Source: a virus. From it: DNA of 23,511 nt. Of the stretch, positions 3,083-22,563 are shown piece after piece; the stretch's first letter is position 1, and each line of letters begins with the position of its first letter. The stretch is taken from positions 1 to 23,511 of IMG/VR virus record IMGVR_UViG_3300025646_000381, one strand, 5' to 3'. The notes under the pieces were generated by a model that was not told where the DNA came from, did not search any database, and saw only the letters and a list, made by a program, of their open reading frames with translations. The translations under genes were made by a program, and so were the position numbers.

Positions 3083-6000
3083 TTAAACTGTCCAATCTTT
3101 TAGTAATTTTGGGTCTGTAGTCCAAGTGTAATGCCATGGTTCATTTACAGACTTACCCTCGTACCAAGACCAATTATATTTGAATCCATTCTTTTTAACC
3201 CATGTTTGAGCTGCTTCCGGTCCAATATCTACAGCTTTACCCCAACCATGATTTGAAGTACCTGGCCAAGCCACAGCGACTTCACCATTAGAATCTACTT
3301 TCTTTCTCTTAGCACCTTTAGTTGGCTTTACATCGATTTCATTCTTAATGGTTGCCTCGTGAGTTGGATCACCACCAGTTCGTACATATAAACCCCAGTC
3401 CATTATGTCATATTGTGTCTTATATGTTCTATATGCAGATGATACTTCTATATTGATGCCTTCTGCCGCAGCATCATTGAACATTCTTATAAAGTCTTCA
3501 GCAGGCCCACCTTTTAATAATTTTCTAGTTCTTTTACTTCCAGGAATTACCATTAATTGATCATCAGAAAGCCTACCATTTTTACCTTTATTTCCTTGTG
3601 GGGGTGATTTAGGTAAAGGAGTTTGTTTGGATTGTGCTGATTTCACAATATTTGTTATCCATTGTCTCGTAGTTAGTGGTGGAGAAGCAGAAGTTGATGA
3701 AGTTGATTGAACTGAAGGAGTAGATTGTGCTGTTACTGCAACAGTTTTTACTACATTATCTCCTGATATTTTAGGAATGCCTAAAGTTTCTAATTTAGTT
3801 ACCCAACCATTACTATCAATAGTATGAGAAATTCCTTTAACTAAAAAATCTAAGTTATTTTGGTAACTTTGAGGAAGATATTCTTCATTGATTGTAAATT
3901 TTTCATATATCTTTACTCCACTTAAACCATCCATGGTTAAAGATAGATTAATAGGTATAAATCCTCTTCCATCATAGGACACTCCTGATGATTCTTCTTT
4001 CCCTAAAAGATAACTAAAATATTGATCAGATAATTCAGTATAATTATCAATTTCATCTTCTTTAACTATACCAATACCTCCATTAACTTGAATAAATAAA
4101 TCATCAATAAATTTATTAAATTTAATTAGATTTTCCCCAAATACTTCTTTAGGATCTCTAGTAGGAGAACTAGAAGGAGAGCCAGAACTTACATCATTAG
4201 AAAAATTATCAGATAAAATTAAAATTCTATTTTCACATCCTGCATTTAAATGAGAAAATCTTGAACCATTAACTCCAGTTTGGTTTGAATCTTGGGAATT
4301 GGCGGTAGCAGCTATAGTTAATTCATTGGCAATTTCTTTTGTAATTTCAGAAGAAATAGAAACATCTTTAACAAAACTACCAAAATTATCTTTTAAGGTA
4401 TTTACATTTATTTTATAAGGATTTTTGTTAATATCAGAAATTAAATTTTTTATACCAGGAATGTAAGTATTGTCTATAATTTTTAAAGTATTAGTTTCAG
4501 GATCACAAGTTACTTCAAAATCATTAACATTTCCTAAAGCTTTTTGGATACCCTTCATTAAAGAAGTTAAAAAATCATATAAAGAAAATTCATCATTTTG
4601 GTATGATTCATCAAAAATTTTTCTAATATAATTAAAATTAACTCTAATATGCATTAAATAACCAACATTCTTATATGATGCATCTCTAAAACCATCAATA
4701 TATTGATTAAGTTTTGTAATATTGTCATTTGTTGATGTTGGGGTTATGGAGGATTCTCCTATAATTTCCATATTTAAATTTTTACCTTTTGCACTCACTA
4801 ATAATGGTTTTGCTTTACTTACAACATATCCTGTATTTCCATAATTCTTAGGGTTACCTAAATAATCTACATATATTTTATCTCCATTTGTATCTAATTT
4901 ATAAAATCTAAATAGATAATTTACTCTTGTAGGATTTACAGGTATTAAACATACTCTAGGATCTATAGAAGTATGTTGGTCTAACGTAAAACAATAATTA
5001 CTGTCATAATCAGTAAATATCTTAAATACAGGATTTTTCTTTTTATCATAATATAATAGATAAGATTCAATAAATCTTAATAAAAAACCTAATGTAAAAT
5101 AATGATTTGTCCCAACATTTCCTGGTCCTTCAGTATCTATTTCATTAAAATCTAATCTAACATATTCATTTGGAGCTTTTTGAGAAGGATCAAGACGAAG
5201 AGAAATATTTTGTTTTCCAAAAAATCCCTTAAAATCATCACTAAGTATTTTAGGTTGAGTTACATAATTTGGTTCGTAGAAATATCGCGCAAACCAACTT
5301 TGATCTGCCTCAATTTTTTTTTCCCAAAAAAGGAAAAAAGCTTCTAAAGAATTTCTAGTCTTCTTTCCTCCTCCTATTTCAGGAGAAGCAGCATTTCTTA
5401 AAGAGAACTTTAGTGATTCAACTATTTCTCCTATTGAAATAAGAGATATTGTAATATCATAAGATCCATCTACATTTAAAGACCAATTAAAGTTTTTAAC
5501 ATAAGCCAAAATTCCATCATAATTTCCCTCAAAATTTTTTCGGTTTTTTTCAATTTCTGAATATATATCATCTTGGGTAGGGGTAGGAATGGATGGATTT
5601 TTTCCTAGAAAGGTCTGAGCTATAGTATATATATTTTTTTGTGTGGTTTTGTTTCTATCTAAATAAATAGAATGTCCCCATTCTAATAAAACAGGGTATT
5701 TAAGTTTCATAAATAAAGTATCAATTATATCAAATTGAAATTTATTAAAACATTTTATTTTAACTGATGCCTCTTTTAAAGAACCTCTATTCAAAGATTT
5801 AATTTCAGCACTTAATAAACCAGGCATAGGGGATAGGCCAAAATTTTTATTAGAAGCCAACCCATATGCTGTATCAGATAAAAAAGCATTATTATAATTA
5901 TTTAAAATACCTCCTTTTTTTCCATTTCCACTTTCAACACCTCCTCTTAAAATGAAATCACTAGCTAATTTATTATTTGCATAAGTTGCAGAAAGATTTA

Positions 6001-6190
6001 ATTCTGCAGCTTTTTCTTGAGTTATATTTACTCCTGAGGTTAGTTGAATCCATGCTGTTTTACTTGTATAATATTGTAAATCTGAAGGGTTTTGGTTAGA
6101 GTATTTACCTAAAACTTCTTGTCTAACTTCTATTTGTTTTCCCACCCAATCAGAAAATGATTCTCCTAGTAGATTATTAGTTTTGCCCAT
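3083..6190 (-). CDS. Baseplate hub protein with C-terminal M15 (VanY-type) peptidase domain
   Basis: This 1035-residue protein has two parts. Residues 1 to about 830 form a large baseplate hub region (it begins MGKTNNLLGESFSDWVGKQ and contains SKTAWIQLTSGVNI near residue 44), of the type found in marine T4-like phages at the gp27/gp5 position. A Ser/Thr/Pro/Gln linker (about 835-880) joins it to an M15 zinc D,D-/L,D-peptidase domain. That domain shows SAYRTYKTQ (Arg921), SNHGWGKAVDIG (zinc ligands His981 and Asp988) and EPWHYTW (catalytic Glu1017, zinc ligand His1020). All expected catalytic residues are present. The enzyme probably cuts peptidoglycan stem peptides locally as the tail penetrates, where T4 uses a gp5 lysozyme domain. 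The exact bond cut cannot be read from sequence. Confidence 0.85.
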   Translation of the reverse strand: MGKTNNLLGESFSDWVGKQIEVRQEVLGKYSNQNPSDLQYYTSKTAWIQLTSGVNITQEKAAELNLSATYANNKLASDFILRGGVESGNGKKGGILNNYNNAFLSDTAYGLASNKNFGLSPMPGLLSAEIKSLNRGSLKEASVKIKCFNKFQFDIIDTLFMKLKYPVLLEWGHSIYLDRNKTTQKNIYTIAQTFLGKNPSIPTPTQDDIYSEIEKNRKNFEGNYDGILAYVKNFNWSLNVDGSYDITISLISIGEIVESLKFSLRNAASPEIGGGKKTRNSLEAFFLFWEKKIEADQSWFARYFYEPNYVTQPKILSDDFKGFFGKQNISLRLDPSQKAPNEYVRLDFNEIDTEGPGNVGTNHYFTLGFLLRFIESYLLYYDKKKNPVFKIFTDYDSNYCFTLDQHTSIDPRVCLIPVNPTRVNYLFRFYKLDTNGDKIYVDYLGNPKNYGNTGYVVSKAKPLLVSAKGKNLNMEIIGESSITPTSTNDNITKLNQYIDGFRDASYKNVGYLMHIRVNFNYIRKIFDESYQNDEFSLYDFLTSLMKGIQKALGNVNDFEVTCDPETNTLKIIDNTYIPGIKNLISDINKNPYKINVNTLKDNFGSFVKDVSISSEITKEIANELTIAATANSQDSNQTGVNGSRFSHLNAGCENRILILSDNFSNDVSSGSPSSSPTRDPKEVFGENLIKFNKFIDDLFIQVNGGIGIVKEDEIDNYTELSDQYFSYLLGKEESSGVSYDGRGFIPINLSLTMDGLSGVKIYEKFTINEEYLPQSYQNNLDFLVKGISHTIDSNGWVTKLETLGIPKISGDNVVKTVAVTAQSTPSVQSTSSTSASPPLTTRQWITNIVKSAQSKQTPLPKSPPQGNKGKNGRLSDDQLMVIPGSKRTRKLLKGGPAEDFIRMFNDAAAEGINIEVSSAYRTYKTQYDIMDWGLYVRTGGDPTHEATIKNEIDVKPTKGAKRKKVDSNGEVAVAWPGTSNHGWGKAVDIGPEAAQTWVKKNGFKYNWSWYEGKSVNEPWHYTWTTDPKLLKDWTV

Positions 6191-18433: not shown

Positions 18434-19099
18434 TTATTCATAACCTTTTAATAATTCAAATATTTCATTTAATGCCTCATGTCTATGATTTTCTCGTAAA
18501 ATAATTTTATTTACAAACTGAGATTTTTCTAATTTTGCAACTTCATGAATTGCTGAGTCATTTTTGTATTTTAAGTCAATTTGTTGGCTATCTCCTGTAA
18601 AAATCATAAATGAATCTTTACCTAATCTTCCTAAACACATTTGTAATTGTTGTTTAGTTAAATTTTGGAACTCATCTATAATACAAATAGCATTTTCAAA
18701 TGTTCTACCTCTAAAGTGAGTCAATGAAACTAATTCAATATTTTCCTCACTTTCCATTTTATTTAAAATATCAGGTTTATTATACACTTTTCGCATATTT
18801 GATCTGATAGGGACTAACCATGGTTCTAATTTCTCTTCTAATGAACCTGGTAAAAATCCATTATCTTCATTGGAAACTGTTGGGCGTGTTATAACAATTT
18901 TATTGATTTGTCTTTTAAAGAACATATCAAGCGCAACTTGTACTGAAAGTAATGTTTTTCCTGATCCTGCCTTTCCTATTACAAAACTAAAAGGTTTTTG
19001 ATATATTAATTCTTTAGCTTGTTTTTGCTCTTCATTCAAAGAAATAGAAAATCTAATATCACCTTTGGGTGGAATCTTTTCAATATTTGATTTAGCCAT
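18434..19099 (-). CDS. phoH: PhoH-like ATPase (221 aa)
   Basis: This PhoH-family P-loop ATPase shows Walker A GKAGSGKT (42-49), the family-typical segments ITRPTVSNEDNGFLPGSLEE (70-89) and FRGRTFENA (129-137), Walker B CIIDEFQN (139-146) and TGDSQQIDL (168-176). All ATP-binding residues expected for the family are present, and the length is usual. PhoH-like proteins are frequent in marine phages; RNA-related ATPase or helicase roles have been proposed but the phage function is not settled. The gene follows the terminator at 19124-19148 and an ATATTTAT motif 15 bases before its ATG, so it opens the unit running through the neck, sheath and tube genes. Confidence 0.93.
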   Translation of the reverse strand: MAKSNIEKIPPKGDIRFSISLNEEQKQAKELIYQKPFSFVIGKAGSGKTLLSVQVALDMFFKRQINKIVITRPTVSNEDNGFLPGSLEEKLEPWLVPIRSNMRKVYNKPDILNKMESEENIELVSLTHFRGRTFENAICIIDEFQNLTKQQLQMCLGRLGKDSFMIFTGDSQQIDLKYKNDSAIHEVAKLEKSQFVNKIILRENHRHEALNEIFELLKGYE

Positions 19100-19123: not shown

Positions 19124-19148
19124 AAAAAAGGCCCCAAATCTGGAGCCT
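19124..19148 (-). terminator. Rho-independent terminator after the phosphatidylserine decarboxylase gene
   Basis: On the minus strand AGGCTCC, a six-base loop and GGGGCCT form a 7-bp GC-rich stem with one T-G wobble, running into six T. It closes the two-gene enzyme cassette and isolates it from phoH. Confidence 0.87.
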
Positions 19149-19174
19149 CTTATTTTAACTTAAGAATTTTTTTA

Positions 19175-19894
19175 TTATTTGAAATTTATTCGAACCAGTT
19201 TATCTTTACCTGCCTCAACATGCATTTCATCATCTAATAATAATTCAAAATCAAATCTAGGATCTAAAGGAAGGACTAAGTCAACTTGAGAACCCCATCT
19301 AATTAAGCTAAATCTTTCATTTTGACACATAGGTTCTTTTTGTTCACTAACAAAATGAGCAATAACATTAACATCCTCATCTGCTATTTGAACCAAATCA
19401 TAAGTATAATCTAACTTAGTAGAATATATAGTATTTCTCATTCTTTCATTATATTTTAGATACTCCATATTGTTAGGGTTAATAGCCATATCTAAAATGT
19501 CTTTTTCCGTTGCTAACATTGGTCTATTCATAGATTCTATAGGATCCAATGGTTTATATGAAAGAACTCCAGCATAAGGTATACGGTTTATATGAACGTC
19601 ATAAAACGACATAAAAATACCAATTACCAAAGATGGTTTATTATATGTTTTATCTTGTAATACATCTTTTAAAGTATAATTAACTCCCTTAATTTCAACA
19701 ATAGGATCATCTGCATCTTCTACAAACTTTTGATATAAAATAGTACCATCCGCTGGGGAGTAGAAATGTTGGTAGTCAATATAATTTGGCCTAAGAGGGT
19801 CTCTGAAGAAAAATGTATTTGATAATTCACTTACAGATAGTTTTGATAACTCTTCTACATCTGTTTCTAGCCAGTCTTCTAATGTTTTAGCCAT
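19175..19894 (-). CDS. psd: Phosphatidylserine decarboxylase proenzyme (239 aa)
   Basis: This pyruvoyl-dependent enzyme would convert phosphatidylserine to phosphatidylethanolamine at the membrane. Family marks are in order: YSPADGTILY (45-54; Asp49 of the processing triad), IFMSFYDVHINRIPYAGVLS (93-112; His101) and FSLIRWGSQVDLVLP (195-209). Self-cleavage is expected between Gly201 and Ser202 to make a large beta chain and a 38-residue alpha chain with an N-terminal pyruvoyl group. A late segment, DDEMHVEAGKDKLVRI, matches the family end. There is no N-terminal membrane anchor, unlike many cellular enzymes. The start overlaps the stop of the DDAH-like gene by one base (TAATG), so the two are translated together. 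It is unexpected in a phage structural module. A substrate other than phosphatidylserine cannot be excluded. Confidence 0.87.
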   Translation of the reverse strand: MAKTLEDWLETDVEELSKLSVSELSNTFFFRDPLRPNYIDYQHFYSPADGTILYQKFVEDADDPIVEIKGVNYTLKDVLQDKTYNKPSLVIGIFMSFYDVHINRIPYAGVLSYKPLDPIESMNRPMLATEKDILDMAINPNNMEYLKYNERMRNTIYSTKLDYTYDLVQIADEDVNVIAHFVSEQKEPMCQNERFSLIRWGSQVDLVLPLDPRFDFELLLDDEMHVEAGKDKLVRINFK

Positions 19895-20808
19895 TATAAT
19901 AAGGTTTTATTTTGATCTACACGGTTCAAGTGGAAAATAAGGCAACTTAACATAGCACCTGATTTCATAAATTCTGATAAGTTAAAAATAACGGGTTCTA
20001 AGCCCTCATTAGCACAAATTTTTTCTAAAGTAAAGATTTTATTTCTTTCGGCTTCATAATCTTTATCTTTAATAGATAATTCAGAAATATTAGAAGCACA
20101 TAAAATCATATTTCCCATTCTTACTGAATTAGTTAAACCTCCAAAAGCATCATCTTCATTTATGTCTATAATTTCAGTATACTTTTCTATAAGCGCTAAC
20201 TCAGGTTTATCAAATAATTCCGTACAAATTAAAGTTTTGTTTTTAGTTAAAGGAAAAATAGAACAATCTAAATGATATAAATAATCTTCCATCATTTCCA
20301 CTTTAATAATTTCCATATCAAAGTTTTCTTCCATCCACTCATATGATTCATATTCAGAACGAATACCATATCCACCAATATAAACATTATCTTTTAAATA
20401 TTTAAGATCTGCTTCTCCTTCCCATTTATGGGGACACATATGAACATCATAATTCATCATTTGGAAAAACGATTTACCTACTTTTTCTTCTCCTTTTCTT
20501 GGGTCTGAGGTGAAGTTAGATAAAATAATATTGTTTGAGTCTTTAATATGAGGAAGATAAATCCCTAAATTAGCTACATAAACTTGATCTTGATATTCTC
20601 CATATGAAGGCATCAAATATACTAGAGAATCTCCTGACATAAAGTTATAGAGATCTAAGAATTGTCTATACGCTTTAGGTTTGTTAATTTTTAATTCTTC
20701 AGAAGACATTTCATTCATCCATACATTATTTGGATTTGAAGTATCTAGCGTAAATGGAAAATTCATTACATACGCAGGGATAGACAGTTGAGATGGGGTT
20801 TCTTTCAT
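19894..20808 (-). CDS. DDAH / amidinotransferase-superfamily enzyme (COG1834-like, 304 aa)
   Basis: The protein matches the guanidino-group-modifying fold of dimethylarginine dimethylaminohydrolases and amidinotransferases. Visible marks are VYVANLGIYLP (77-87; conserved Asn80), a NFTSDPRKGEE element (98-108), KWEGEADLKYL (128-138; the usual EGGD acidic site), GYGIRSEYES (146-155), YLYHLDCSIFPL (176-187; catalytic His179) and LSEFMKSGAMLSCLIFHL (277-294; nucleophile Cys289). Such enzymes attack the guanidinium carbon of arginine-like substrates through a Cys-linked amidino intermediate. The substrate cannot be told: hydrolysis of arginine or methylarginine, or amidino transfer, are all possible. 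The usual GG before the Cys is replaced by GAML. The gene lies between two terminators with psd and has its own candidate promoter. Confidence 0.83.
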   Translation of the reverse strand: MKETPSQLSIPAYVMNFPFTLDTSNPNNVWMNEMSSEELKINKPKAYRQFLDLYNFMSGDSLVYLMPSYGEYQDQVYVANLGIYLPHIKDSNNIILSNFTSDPRKGEEKVGKSFFQMMNYDVHMCPHKWEGEADLKYLKDNVYIGGYGIRSEYESYEWMEENFDMEIIKVEMMEDYLYHLDCSIFPLTKNKTLICTELFDKPELALIEKYTEIIDINEDDAFGGLTNSVRMGNMILCASNISELSIKDKDYEAERNKIFTLEKICANEGLEPVIFNLSEFMKSGAMLSCLIFHLNRVDQNKTLL

Positions 20809-20837
20809 TTTTACTTATTTACTTATTTTAAACAGCT

Positions 20838-20845
20838 ATAAATAT
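20838..20845 (-). promoter_or_regulatory. ATATTTAT motif before the DDAH-PSD cassette (candidate late promoter)
   Basis: Sense-strand ATATTTAT followed by AGCTGTTT, 29 bases before the ATG at 20808 and 20 bases past the capsid-gene terminator. It would give the enzyme cassette its own transcript with the same timing as the tail genes. Confidence 0.6.
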
Positions 20846-20865
20846 AATAAGAAATATTAGGAAAC

Positions 20866-20893
20866 AAAAAGAGCCTAGATTTCTCTAGGCTCT
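20866..20893 (-). terminator. Rho-independent terminator after the major capsid gene
   Basis: On the minus strand AGAGCCTAGA, a GAAA (GNRA) tetraloop and TCTAGGCTCT form a perfect 10-bp stem, with five T covering its last base and the tail. It lies 20 bases past the capsid stop. Confidence 0.93.
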
Positions 20894-20913: not shown

Positions 20914-22563
20914 TTAAAGAGTGTTCAATCCTGCTACGTAGATTTTACCGTAAAATTCTGGTCTTAACATCTTCTTAGCATAACGAGTTAAGAGACCTTT
21001 TCTTGGAGTGAAGGTATCTGGATCGTATACTAGAGGAGTCATGATCAATGGAATGTACGGAGCAAAGGCAGCACCAGCTTCAAGGTATTGAGTACCTTTT
21101 AGACCCATTAAGATTGTATTCTCAGTCATGTATGGGTTTTTGTAAACTTGGTATCTGCTATTAAGCTGACCTACTTTCTGAACACCAAATGCATAAGACA
21201 TCTCAGCTGCATCACCATTGCTAGTTGAAGCAAATCCTGGGATTGATTCAAGAATAGTTGCAATAGTTGGAGAACATACTAAGAAGTTAGCACCACCTCT
21301 AAGAGTTTTCTGGTGAATAATATTAGATACTTTTTGGATTTTAGTACCTAGAGTTTGGAACCACTGACCTTGTGAATTGTAGAATCCTAAATTAGTAGCA
21401 ACACCTGAAGAGTTTAGAGAAATATTGTTCTGAGCCGACCATTGTTCAGTTGTTAAAGCATCACCAATTAACATATCAAGGATTTCCAAGTCAATTTCCA
21501 TTGAAATGTATTCACTCATGATTGAAGTTAATTCAGCTTCAGCATCCAAGTTTTGGTAAGCATTAAGGTCTTGTGCAAACTCAGGAGTCCATACAGCCTT
21601 TAGCTTTTTAGTTTTAGCAACAATAGCCTCTGACTTAAGCTTAACGTTAATTTCTGGAATTTCAAATGTTCCTGTTGCATTATTAGCATTAAGACCAGTG
21701 TTATTATCTTCAAAGTCACCTCTGAATTGATCAGTTGGTTGAAGTTGGAATGAAGCAGTAACATTTGAATAAGAAGCTAATTCAGCGCCTAATGAGCCTG
21801 TTAAAACAAAGGTTACATTAGTTCCACTAACTTTAGTAAATGCTGGGAGGTTATTAGCTTCGTTGAAGTCTGAACCAGATGCAATTAAGAAACCTCTAGC
21901 TGCTTTTAAATCAGCATTTGTACCTGCAAAGTCAATAGTAAGAGTTTTATACTCATCTGCAGCGGCTGAAGCTGAGAAATTTGAGTCAAAGTTAAAATCA
22001 GCCCATGATGCGGTTGCTACTGTAGCATCAAGATAAGATGAGGTATTATTAGTAGAGTAAGTAAATCTACCTGCTCCATATAAACCATCAGTTGGATCAC
22101 CTGCAGCATCAGTTACACCATAGGTAGAACCATTACCAAATACATCACCACCTACGTTAAATGGAGTGTTAACACCACTTATAGCTTTAGAAGTGCCATA
22201 TTGATAATCAAGGAAGAATACAAGACCTGAAGGAAGAGACATTGGTTGAACTGAAACGAAGTCTTTTGCTGCGATTTGACCAAATACCTTTCTTACAAGT
22301 GGAAGAGCTACACCAGCCCATTGCTCACCTGTTCCTGCTGTAAAACTACCTACAGATGAAGTACCACCACCAGTTTGTGATGATTCTACTACTAATTGTT
22401 TTGCTTGGTTTTCAAGCATAAGGGCCATGTTTGATTTATCATGTTTTGATAGGCCCTCTAAAAGTCCTGTTCTTTCCCATTTTTTAGCAAGTCTAACTGC
22501 ATCAGACTGTACATTTTTCCATTGGGCAGAACTCTCTAAAAGAGTTTGTAATTGATTTGCCAT
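20914..22563 (-). CDS. Major capsid protein (gp23-like)
   Basis: This 549-residue protein is close to T4 gp23 in length (521). The N-terminus is a helical prohead-type segment (LLESSAQWKNVQSD, later KKWERTGLLEGLS), followed by MALMLENQAKQLVVE at 46-60. The conserved capsid core follows: FTAGTGEQWAGVALPLVRKV (74-93), FGQIAAKDFVSVQPMSLPSG (94-113), VFFLDYQYGTS, then KAVWTPEFAQDLNAYQNLDA and the AKKMLRPEFYGKIYVAGL end. Residues about 125-300 are a Gly/Ser/Thr/Asn-rich insertion. By analogy with gp23, the prohead protease may cut near Glu60; this is inferred. The gene is visibly less AT-rich than its neighbours, consistent with very high expression. It follows the core protein after 18 bases and ends in a strong terminator. 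Confidence 0.95.
   Translation of the reverse strand: MANQLQTLLESSAQWKNVQSDAVRLAKKWERTGLLEGLSKHDKSNMALMLENQAKQLVVESSQTGGGTSSVGSFTAGTGEQWAGVALPLVRKVFGQIAAKDFVSVQPMSLPSGLVFFLDYQYGTSKAISGVNTPFNVGGDVFGNGSTYGVTDAAGDPTDGLYGAGRFTYSTNNTSSYLDATVATASWADFNFDSNFSASAAADEYKTLTIDFAGTNADLKAARGFLIASGSDFNEANNLPAFTKVSGTNVTFVLTGSLGAELASYSNVTASFQLQPTDQFRGDFEDNNTGLNANNATGTFEIPEINVKLKSEAIVAKTKKLKAVWTPEFAQDLNAYQNLDAEAELTSIMSEYISMEIDLEILDMLIGDALTTEQWSAQNNISLNSSGVATNLGFYNSQGQWFQTLGTKIQKVSNIIHQKTLRGGANFLVCSPTIATILESIPGFASTSNGDAAEMSYAFGVQKVGQLNSRYQVYKNPYMTENTILMGLKGTQYLEAGAAFAPYIPLIMTPLVYDPDTFTPRKGLLTRYAKKMLRPEFYGKIYVAGLNTL

Follow-up and report, generated by a model that had tools for sequence, protein, structure and literature searches.

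The locus analysed here raises the question of what a T4-like phage does with a gene of the phosphatidylserine decarboxylase (PSD) superfamily that lies, together with a second gene, between its capsid and phoH genes. The window, by which we mean the whole stretch of DNA that was analysed (23,511 nucleotides), is the complete record IMGVR_UViG_3300025646_000381, a 23.5-kb linear viral contig. Its genes, which encode a Gp23 capsid protein, PhoH, and neck, sheath, and baseplate proteins, form the set of a T4-like myovirus, and among annotated sequences Flavobacterium phage immuto matches its DNA best. The features discussed below are the following, listed in the direction of transcription:

20914..22563, minus strand: major capsid protein Gp23, upstream of the pair (PF07068, 254 bits)
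20868..20893, minus strand: hairpin and T-run, terminator-like, between the capsid gene and the pair (from the sequence and its conservation in relatives)
20837..20846, minus strand: TATATTTATA element, candidate phage promoter, 38 nt before the ATG of the partner gene
19894..20808, minus strand: partner gene (called AMT), 304 aa, guanidino-group-modifying enzyme superfamily, arginine-dihydrolase-like, PHROG_12759 (from profile, structure, and residue comparisons)
19175..19894, minus strand: PSD-like gene, 239 aa, PF02666 and PHROG_12670, predicted soluble pyruvoyl-dependent amino-acid decarboxylase
19289..19294, minus strand: codons of Gly201-Ser202, the predicted self-cleavage site at which Ser202 would become the pyruvoyl group (from the sequence and invariance in relatives)
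19178..19291, minus strand: predicted alpha chain, residues 202-239, 38 aa (from the sequence)
18434..19099, minus strand: PhoH-like protein, next gene downstream of the pair (PF02562, 170 bits)

The partner is the upstream gene of the pair, and its stop codon overlaps the ATG of the PSD-like gene by one base (TAATG). The plus strand of 19175-19894 is stop-rich, and the open reading frame is confined to the minus strand. An earlier note on this DNA had placed the PSD-like gene in the late region, which is right as to position, with the gene for the major capsid protein (gp23) upstream and phoH and the neck and tail genes downstream; from this position, and from nothing else, we infer late timing of the pair.

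The PSD-like protein carries intact processing motifs

The PSD-like protein matched the Pfam profile PF02666 with 79.6 bits, against a curated cut-off of 22, and PHROG_12670 with 152 bits; PHROGs lists both genes of the pair as being of unknown function. The motifs that the earlier note had recognized, SPADG (residues 46-50), DVHINR-P-G (DVHINRIP at 99-106), and RWGSQVD (199-205), are present in the right order. D49, H101, G201, and S202 are invariant in 83/83 full-length phage copies, those of Campylobacter and Bacteroides phages included, and the processing motifs are thus intact far beyond chance; the self-processing residues (Asp of PADG, His of DVH, and Gly-Ser) are also conserved in 27/27 rows of what we term the module clade (see below). 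The sequence likewise agrees with the expected cleavage between Gly201 and Ser202 and with an alpha chain of 38 residues, and we predict that the protein cleaves itself at this site to generate its pyruvoyl cofactor. The earlier note had regarded phage genes of this kind as uncommon, a view that the present data overturn: with 185 relatives in viral contigs and 45 annotated phage records, the PSD-like gene is widespread in phages, not rare.

Structure comparison of the PSD-like protein returned E. coli PSD first (Z 10.8, rmsd 6.7, 163 residues aligned), with the unrelated barrel IIA-Glc (1gpr) nearly equal (Z 10.4, rmsd 3.6, 141 aligned) and with PsiD (Z 8.9) and the arginine decarboxylase of Aspergillus oryzae (9jer; Z 7.9, rmsd 4.3, 152 aligned) also among the matches. 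The best Foldseek match was PsiD, with an E value of 3e-3. Given the score of IIA-Glc, the structural match is weak by itself and not decisive, which also holds for the non-enzymatic barrel that the earlier note had named as the finding that would speak against it; the sequence does not point to such a family.

The module clade is separate from canonical PSDs

In a tree of 50 selected rows, which do not represent all loci and from which the degenerate paralogues L202 and L203 were dropped, 27 module rows lay on one side of a branch with a support of 100/98 and 23 canonical PSDs on the other. Eleven of the canonical rows were from Flavobacteriales, and none of these fell inside the module clade, so that the phylogeny proposed earlier as a check for grouping with Bacteroidota enzymes gave a negative result. 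An earlier tree of 39 selected rows, which included L202 and L203 but was built without Flavobacteriales, agrees on a separate module clade. L202 and L203 are copies of a third PF02666 paralogue found in two pair-bearing bacterial genomes; they are without the catalytic His and the Gly-Ser site, and this paralogue is apparently a dead or repurposed form. None of the 14 listed NCBIfam PSD equivalog models was reached at its cut-off, the best score being 73.1 bits versus a cut-off of 183. Of the original identification as a PSD, the superfamily and the intact motifs are confirmed, but a phospholipid (PS to PE) role is not supported.

Short-type phosphatidylserine/archaetidylserine decarboxylases (PRK05305, TIGR00164; PF02666) resemble the PSD-like protein in superfamily, in motif order (FFRDP, PADG, DVH.NR.P, N.R, and RFGSxVD-like), and in predicted self-cleavage. 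The PSD-like protein, in contrast, has no N-terminal hydrophobic segments, lies far below the equivalog cut-offs in a clade of its own, has Q203 after Gly-Ser and acidic residues at E130, D172, and D174, and is accompanied by an arginine-enzyme partner. The lack of an N-terminal anchor, already remarked on in the earlier note, was borne out by maximum 19-residue hydropathies of -0.66 to 0.34 in the 27 module rows and of up to 0.43 in 83 phage rows, while Flavobacteriales short-type PSDs reach 2.15 to 3.25. As three canonical long-type PSDs score low too (0.26, 0.43, and 0.54), the missing hydrophobic segment alone is not decisive. Several positions that vary little or not at all within the module differ in canonical PSDs. 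E130 of the module stands where eight of the nine canonical rows with a letter have R/K, D172 where canonical PSDs have A, G, or K, and D174, present in 26/27 module rows, where they mostly have C/N/V and similar residues; Q191 corresponds to K in 10/14 canonical rows, and Q203 likewise differs from the canonical residue. These exchanges could reflect a switch in substrate, with a cation taking the place of the anionic head group of a lipid, a reading that we treat as a hint only because E130 sits in a loop (122-134) modelled with low confidence.

The PF02666 match and motifs are what would be expected of a true PSD that raises phosphatidylethanolamine in late infection, the role before lysis that the earlier note had envisaged, and the gene is annotated as a PSD in Campylobacter phages, whose records annotate both pair genes, separately. 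An ocean phage gene survey also treats psd as a phage lipid gene in the accessible part of its text (PMC11360552). Such a role is difficult to reconcile with the separate clade and the failed equivalog cut-offs, with the missing membrane segment, and with a strict partnership in which the gene is inherited together with an arginine-dihydrolase-like gene. In addition, 12 of 13 searchable pair-bearing bacterial genomes have an ordinary PSD as a second PF02666 gene, scoring 136.6-210.6 bits versus 76.9-96.6 bits for the module copy, the sole genome without one being from Latescibacterota, and no lipid genes were seen beside the PSD-like gene in the viral and bacterial loci examined. We therefore consider a true PSD very unlikely, and the PSD-like protein is very probably a non-lipid decarboxylase coupled to its partner gene.

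The partner gene resembles arginine dihydrolases

The closest solved relatives of the partner by sequence are the arginine dihydrolases Alr4995/AgrE and Sll1336/ArgZ. When its AlphaFold model (pLDDT 84.2) was searched with Foldseek, the top 13 chains were all ArgZ/AgrE (E values of 4e-18 to 4e-16), followed by SxtG and dimethylargininases (4e-11 to 1e-10). Positions aligned to N22, D65, N71, R90, E118, R139, H168, and D170 of AgrE are identical in 78/78 phage and 20/20 phage-plus-bacterial rows, and Cys289 of the partner is invariant in 78/78 phage rows. We take N71 to be the residue that confers dihydrolase instead of deiminase activity, whereas R90 and R139 of AgrE, to which R104 and R150 of the partner align, presumably hold the alpha-carboxylate of arginine. 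In the PDB titles of ArgZ/AgrE entries, N71 and C264 appear as mutated residues (Asn71 to Ser in PDB 6juz). Fold and catalytic residues are thus as in ArgZ (Sll1336) and AgrE (Alr4995), but the partner has no ornithine cyclodeaminase domain, carries Glu132 where AgrE has Ala120, and misses the NCBIfam arginine-dihydrolase cut-off with 93.6 bits versus 450. From these comparisons the partner is most likely an arginine-hydrolysing enzyme of the ArgZ/AgrE type, which would convert arginine to ornithine, CO2, and ammonia.

Amidino transfer is a different chemistry open to this superfamily: the partner would transfer arginine's amidino group onto an acceptor, and one of the products would then be decarboxylated by the PSD-like enzyme, yielding a small guanidino compound that bacteria would export and phages would use otherwise. 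The amidinotransferases SxtG, HsvA, and AGAT among the further structural matches, the difference from AgrE at Glu132, the MATE exporter that adjoins the bacterial pair (see below), and the name 'amidinotransferase' in Campylobacter phage records are all consistent with this. However, ArgZ/AgrE are clearly closer than any amidinotransferase (E of about 1e-17 versus 4e-11), and the partner keeps Asn71, the position changed to Ser in the mutant structure, and amidino transfer appears to us quite unlikely.

The two genes are present or absent together in phages

We examined 80 viral loci chosen by likeness to the PSD-like protein, a set that includes near-copies and comprises 65 distinct PSD-like DNA sequences. 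In 78 of them the partner ends no more than 20 bp before the start of the PSD-like gene, with a contig end in the other two, and a capsid gene lies upstream in 75/80 and phoH downstream in 76/80, the rest being cut by contig ends. To avoid selection on the PSD-like protein, a second set of 80 loci was chosen anew by the capsid protein. This revealed 34 loci with both genes, none with the PSD-like gene alone, two with the partner alone (at contig ends), 12 that were too short, and 32 with neither gene, which here means absent within 6 kb after the capsid gene or up to the contig end, so that the pair could sit elsewhere in those genomes. The 66 informative loci (34 with both genes, 32 with neither) hold no single gene, and the pair is thus all-or-nothing among them. 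In most of the 32 loci with neither gene, phoH comes next after the capsid gene. Mapped onto the capsid tree, the pair switches between present and absent at least 10 times, eight of these changes being forced by supported branches, and always as a unit. About half of the informative related phages do without the pair near the capsid gene, which makes it dispensable there.

Median identity in 31 capsid-chosen loci was 73.3% and 70.4% for the pair genes versus 62.5% for the capsid protein; the same comparison in 61 of the 80 loci chosen by likeness to the PSD-like protein, which is biased by that choice, gave 75.3 and 70.7 versus 60.5%. We considered a structural (virion) role because both pair genes are more conserved than the capsid protein, and rejected it in view of the 32/66 informative phages without the pair near the capsid gene. 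All 45 cultured-phage records with a PSD-like gene also have the partner, as judged from two lists compared by eye and in records that are mostly close relatives and GenBank/RefSeq doubles. The pair genes are about 43 kb apart in Campylobacter phage NCTC12673, side by side in Bacteroides phage DAC19, and on opposite strands in the related contig L298. Taken together, the pairing of the PSD-like gene with its partner is well supported.

A divergent virus (L296) carries a gene of the agmatine deiminase family (PF04371, 5133-5996) between its arginine-dihydrolase-like and PSD-like genes. This gene ties the pair to arginine/polyamine chemistry, and arginine and ornithine both fit as the decarboxylated substrate. 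Decarboxylation of arginine could then come first, with the PSD-like enzyme producing agmatine and the partner removing the guanidino carbon to give putrescine or a carbamoyl form, an order to which the agmatine-deiminase-family gene would be suited and for which a PSD-fold arginine decarboxylase (9jer) among the matched solved structures offers a parallel. The partner nonetheless keeps R104 and R150, the counterparts of the presumed carboxylate-holding residues of AgrE, and agmatine is without that carboxylate; we consider this order of steps unlikely.

Spermidine synthase, SpeD, and PLP ornithine/arginine decarboxylase (PF01564, PF02675, and PF02784) were found in 0/9 phage records, seven of which are possibly incomplete contigs, and in such phages the amine product would accordingly serve unchanged or be processed by host enzymes. 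For a 165.7-kb relative of the window (tiles L204-L212), no further polyamine genes were seen among the 25 of 32 families shown from one search or among those shown from others.

The pair probably has its own phage promoter

The terminator-like structure after the capsid gene is present in 51 of 55 distinct relatives versus 0.2 expected in shuffles. Elements of the TATATTTATA type (at most one mismatch) precede 26 of the 66 genes that have a gap upstream in the 165.7-kb relative, its partner gene included, where shuffles gave 3.6, and look like a phage-specific promoter class. The conserved terminator-like hairpin together with the TATATTTATA element suggests that the pair probably has its own phage promoter. 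Two other candidate signals were rejected: a Bacteroidota-type promoter (TTTG-N-TAnnTTT) before the pair, found in 6/55 distinct loci versus 1.15 expected, is not general, and a terminator-like site downstream of the PSD-like gene (at 19126-19151) recurs in only 1/54 distinct gaps.

The 165.7-kb relative has T4-type portal, prohead protease, and terminase genes. It also encodes a Cpn60-type chaperonin, a Band_7/SPFH protein, and a Por secretion-system sorting-domain protein, the last of which points to Bacteroidota hosts. In phage immuto, the gap between capsid gene and phoH holds a different gene of 546 aa (L085:2397-4037), so that cargo genes may often settle at this position; the immuto gene was also considered as a fusion of both pair genes and dismissed, as Pfam gives neither family. 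Elsewhere in the window, residues 870-1025 of a 1035-aa ORF (3083-6190, minus strand) match a family annotated as tail tape measure. The C-terminal part of this ORF may, by eye, be a peptidase-like domain, and the ORF could thus encode a baseplate component that carries a cell-wall enzyme.

Bacterial relatives of the pair

A scan of bacterial genomes returned 23 loci at about 50% identity to the PSD-like protein, 22 of which look bacterial, the remaining one (L089) being a phage contig; as the search for these relatives relied on no more than two short patterns, they give a minimum for the bacterial spread. Carriers include Verrucomicrobiota, Saccharothrix, Sulfurimonas, Sedimenticola, Latescibacterota, Eisenbacteria, KSB1, and others. 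In 20 of the 22 bacterial loci the partner follows immediately after the PSD-like gene, an order reversed relative to the window lineage. Of the two exceptions, the contig of L111 ends too early, and in L090 the PSD-like gene adjoins a distant partner relative (369 aa, with a weak dimethylargininase match). Among 141 genomes of one verrucomicrobial order, the same four hold each gene and 137 hold neither. The genes more likely passed from bacteria to phages than the other way, which we infer from a tree rooted by canonical enzymes only.

Fifteen of the 22 bacterial loci have a MATE-type gene adjoining or close to the pair, with 13 of these genes in one BLAST cluster, plus L101 and L110; Pfam tests of these genes covered L091, L092, L093, and L096 of the cluster and, separately, L101 and L110. 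One Saccharothrix locus (L097) has an ABC exporter gene directly upstream of the pair. A bacterial exporter would fit a secreted guanidino or amine metabolite as well as putrescine. Two or more other PF02784 decarboxylases are encoded in 9/13 pair-bearing bacterial genomes, whose completeness is uncertain, and a putrescine shortage in these bacteria, which we had considered, could not be concluded. In the Verrucomicrobiales genomes G003, G009, and G011 we found a single PF02784 gene each, with PF01276 and SpeD giving no match above cut-off, and G012 is borderline for PF01276.

The occurrence of the pair in bacterial genomes beside an exporter also bears on a role in DNA-base modification, in which ornithine made by the partner would be attached to a modified pyrimidine and decarboxylated there. 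The model for this is the putrescinyl-thymine of phage phi W-14; the chemistry fits, and the 165.7-kb relative has a thymidylate synthase gene. Besides the bacterial loci, two observations speak against such a role: no modification genes were noticed among the families shown for the 165.7-kb relative, and Campylobacter phage NCTC 12673 is reported to have deoxyinosine instead, according to the accessible part of PMC8306585. We judge DNA-base modification to be extremely improbable. The same part of that paper reports dADG in CP220/CPt10, and 7-deazaguanine or another DNA modification, considered from the Campylobacter phages, was set aside since deoxyinosine in the one and dADG in the others provide no common link.

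A possible route from arginine to putrescine

The best explanation of these observations, to which we would give about even chances, is that the pair encodes a soluble pyruvoyl-dependent amino-acid decarboxylase and an arginine hydrolase which, from behind the capsid gene, take arginine through ornithine to putrescine. The partner would hydrolyse arginine, and the PSD-like enzyme, once its predicted cleavage at Gly201-Ser202 had supplied the pyruvoyl group, would use the acidic residues at its clade-specific positions in decarboxylating a small basic amino acid, namely ornithine, to putrescine. In phages, where the pair directly follows the capsid gene, has its own promoter-like element, and is not joined by an exporter, the amine would probably be made during head filling and would neutralise the DNA packaged in phage heads. 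Polyamines neutralise packaged DNA, and T4 heads contain putrescine and spermidine; for the predicted product, the use that suggests itself most readily is therefore to neutralise DNA during packaging.

Two fungal enzymes combine the PSD fold with action on a free amino acid, and to our knowledge neither belongs to a two-gene cassette. These enzymes, the L-tryptophan decarboxylase PsiD (PDB 8zia/8x4q) and the Aspergillus oryzae arginine decarboxylase (9jer), differ from the PSD-like protein in being larger and share 12-15% identity with it in structural alignments. According to the accessible part of PMC9992855, phages carry pyruvoyl ornithine/arginine decarboxylases derived from SpeD, and an arginase homologue was not found in phages. 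The SpeD-derived enzymes (PMC9992855 and PMC10407285, the latter likewise accessible in part) are also pyruvoyl-dependent, phage-borne, and converted to ornithine/arginine, but belong to another family (AdoMetDC). Our literature search found no text describing the pairing of PSD-like and arginine-dihydrolase-like genes, which is not proof of absence.

As a tentative and somewhat doubtful extension of this model, a PSD-derived ornithine (or arginine) decarboxylase family may have arisen in bacteria and, with the dihydrolase, have moved as a complete arginine-to-putrescine cassette into T4-like phages of Bacteroidota and Campylobacter, taking its place behind the capsid gene in Bacteroidota-type phages and supplying counter-ions for packaging.

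The novelty lies in a metabolic cassette carried by phages, in which one gene represents a newly recognised PSD-superfamily clade. Phage records label members of this clade as phosphatidylserine decarboxylase or as hypothetical, and if the proposed function is true, these labels mislead toward lipid instead of arginine/polyamine metabolism. With SpeD as the first example, the cassette would then also be a second, independent instance in which phages drew on a family of pyruvoyl enzymes for amine synthesis. Present or absent in otherwise similar phages (34 versus 32 informative loci), this compact two-gene route would provide a direct test of its effect on amine pools and DNA packaging.
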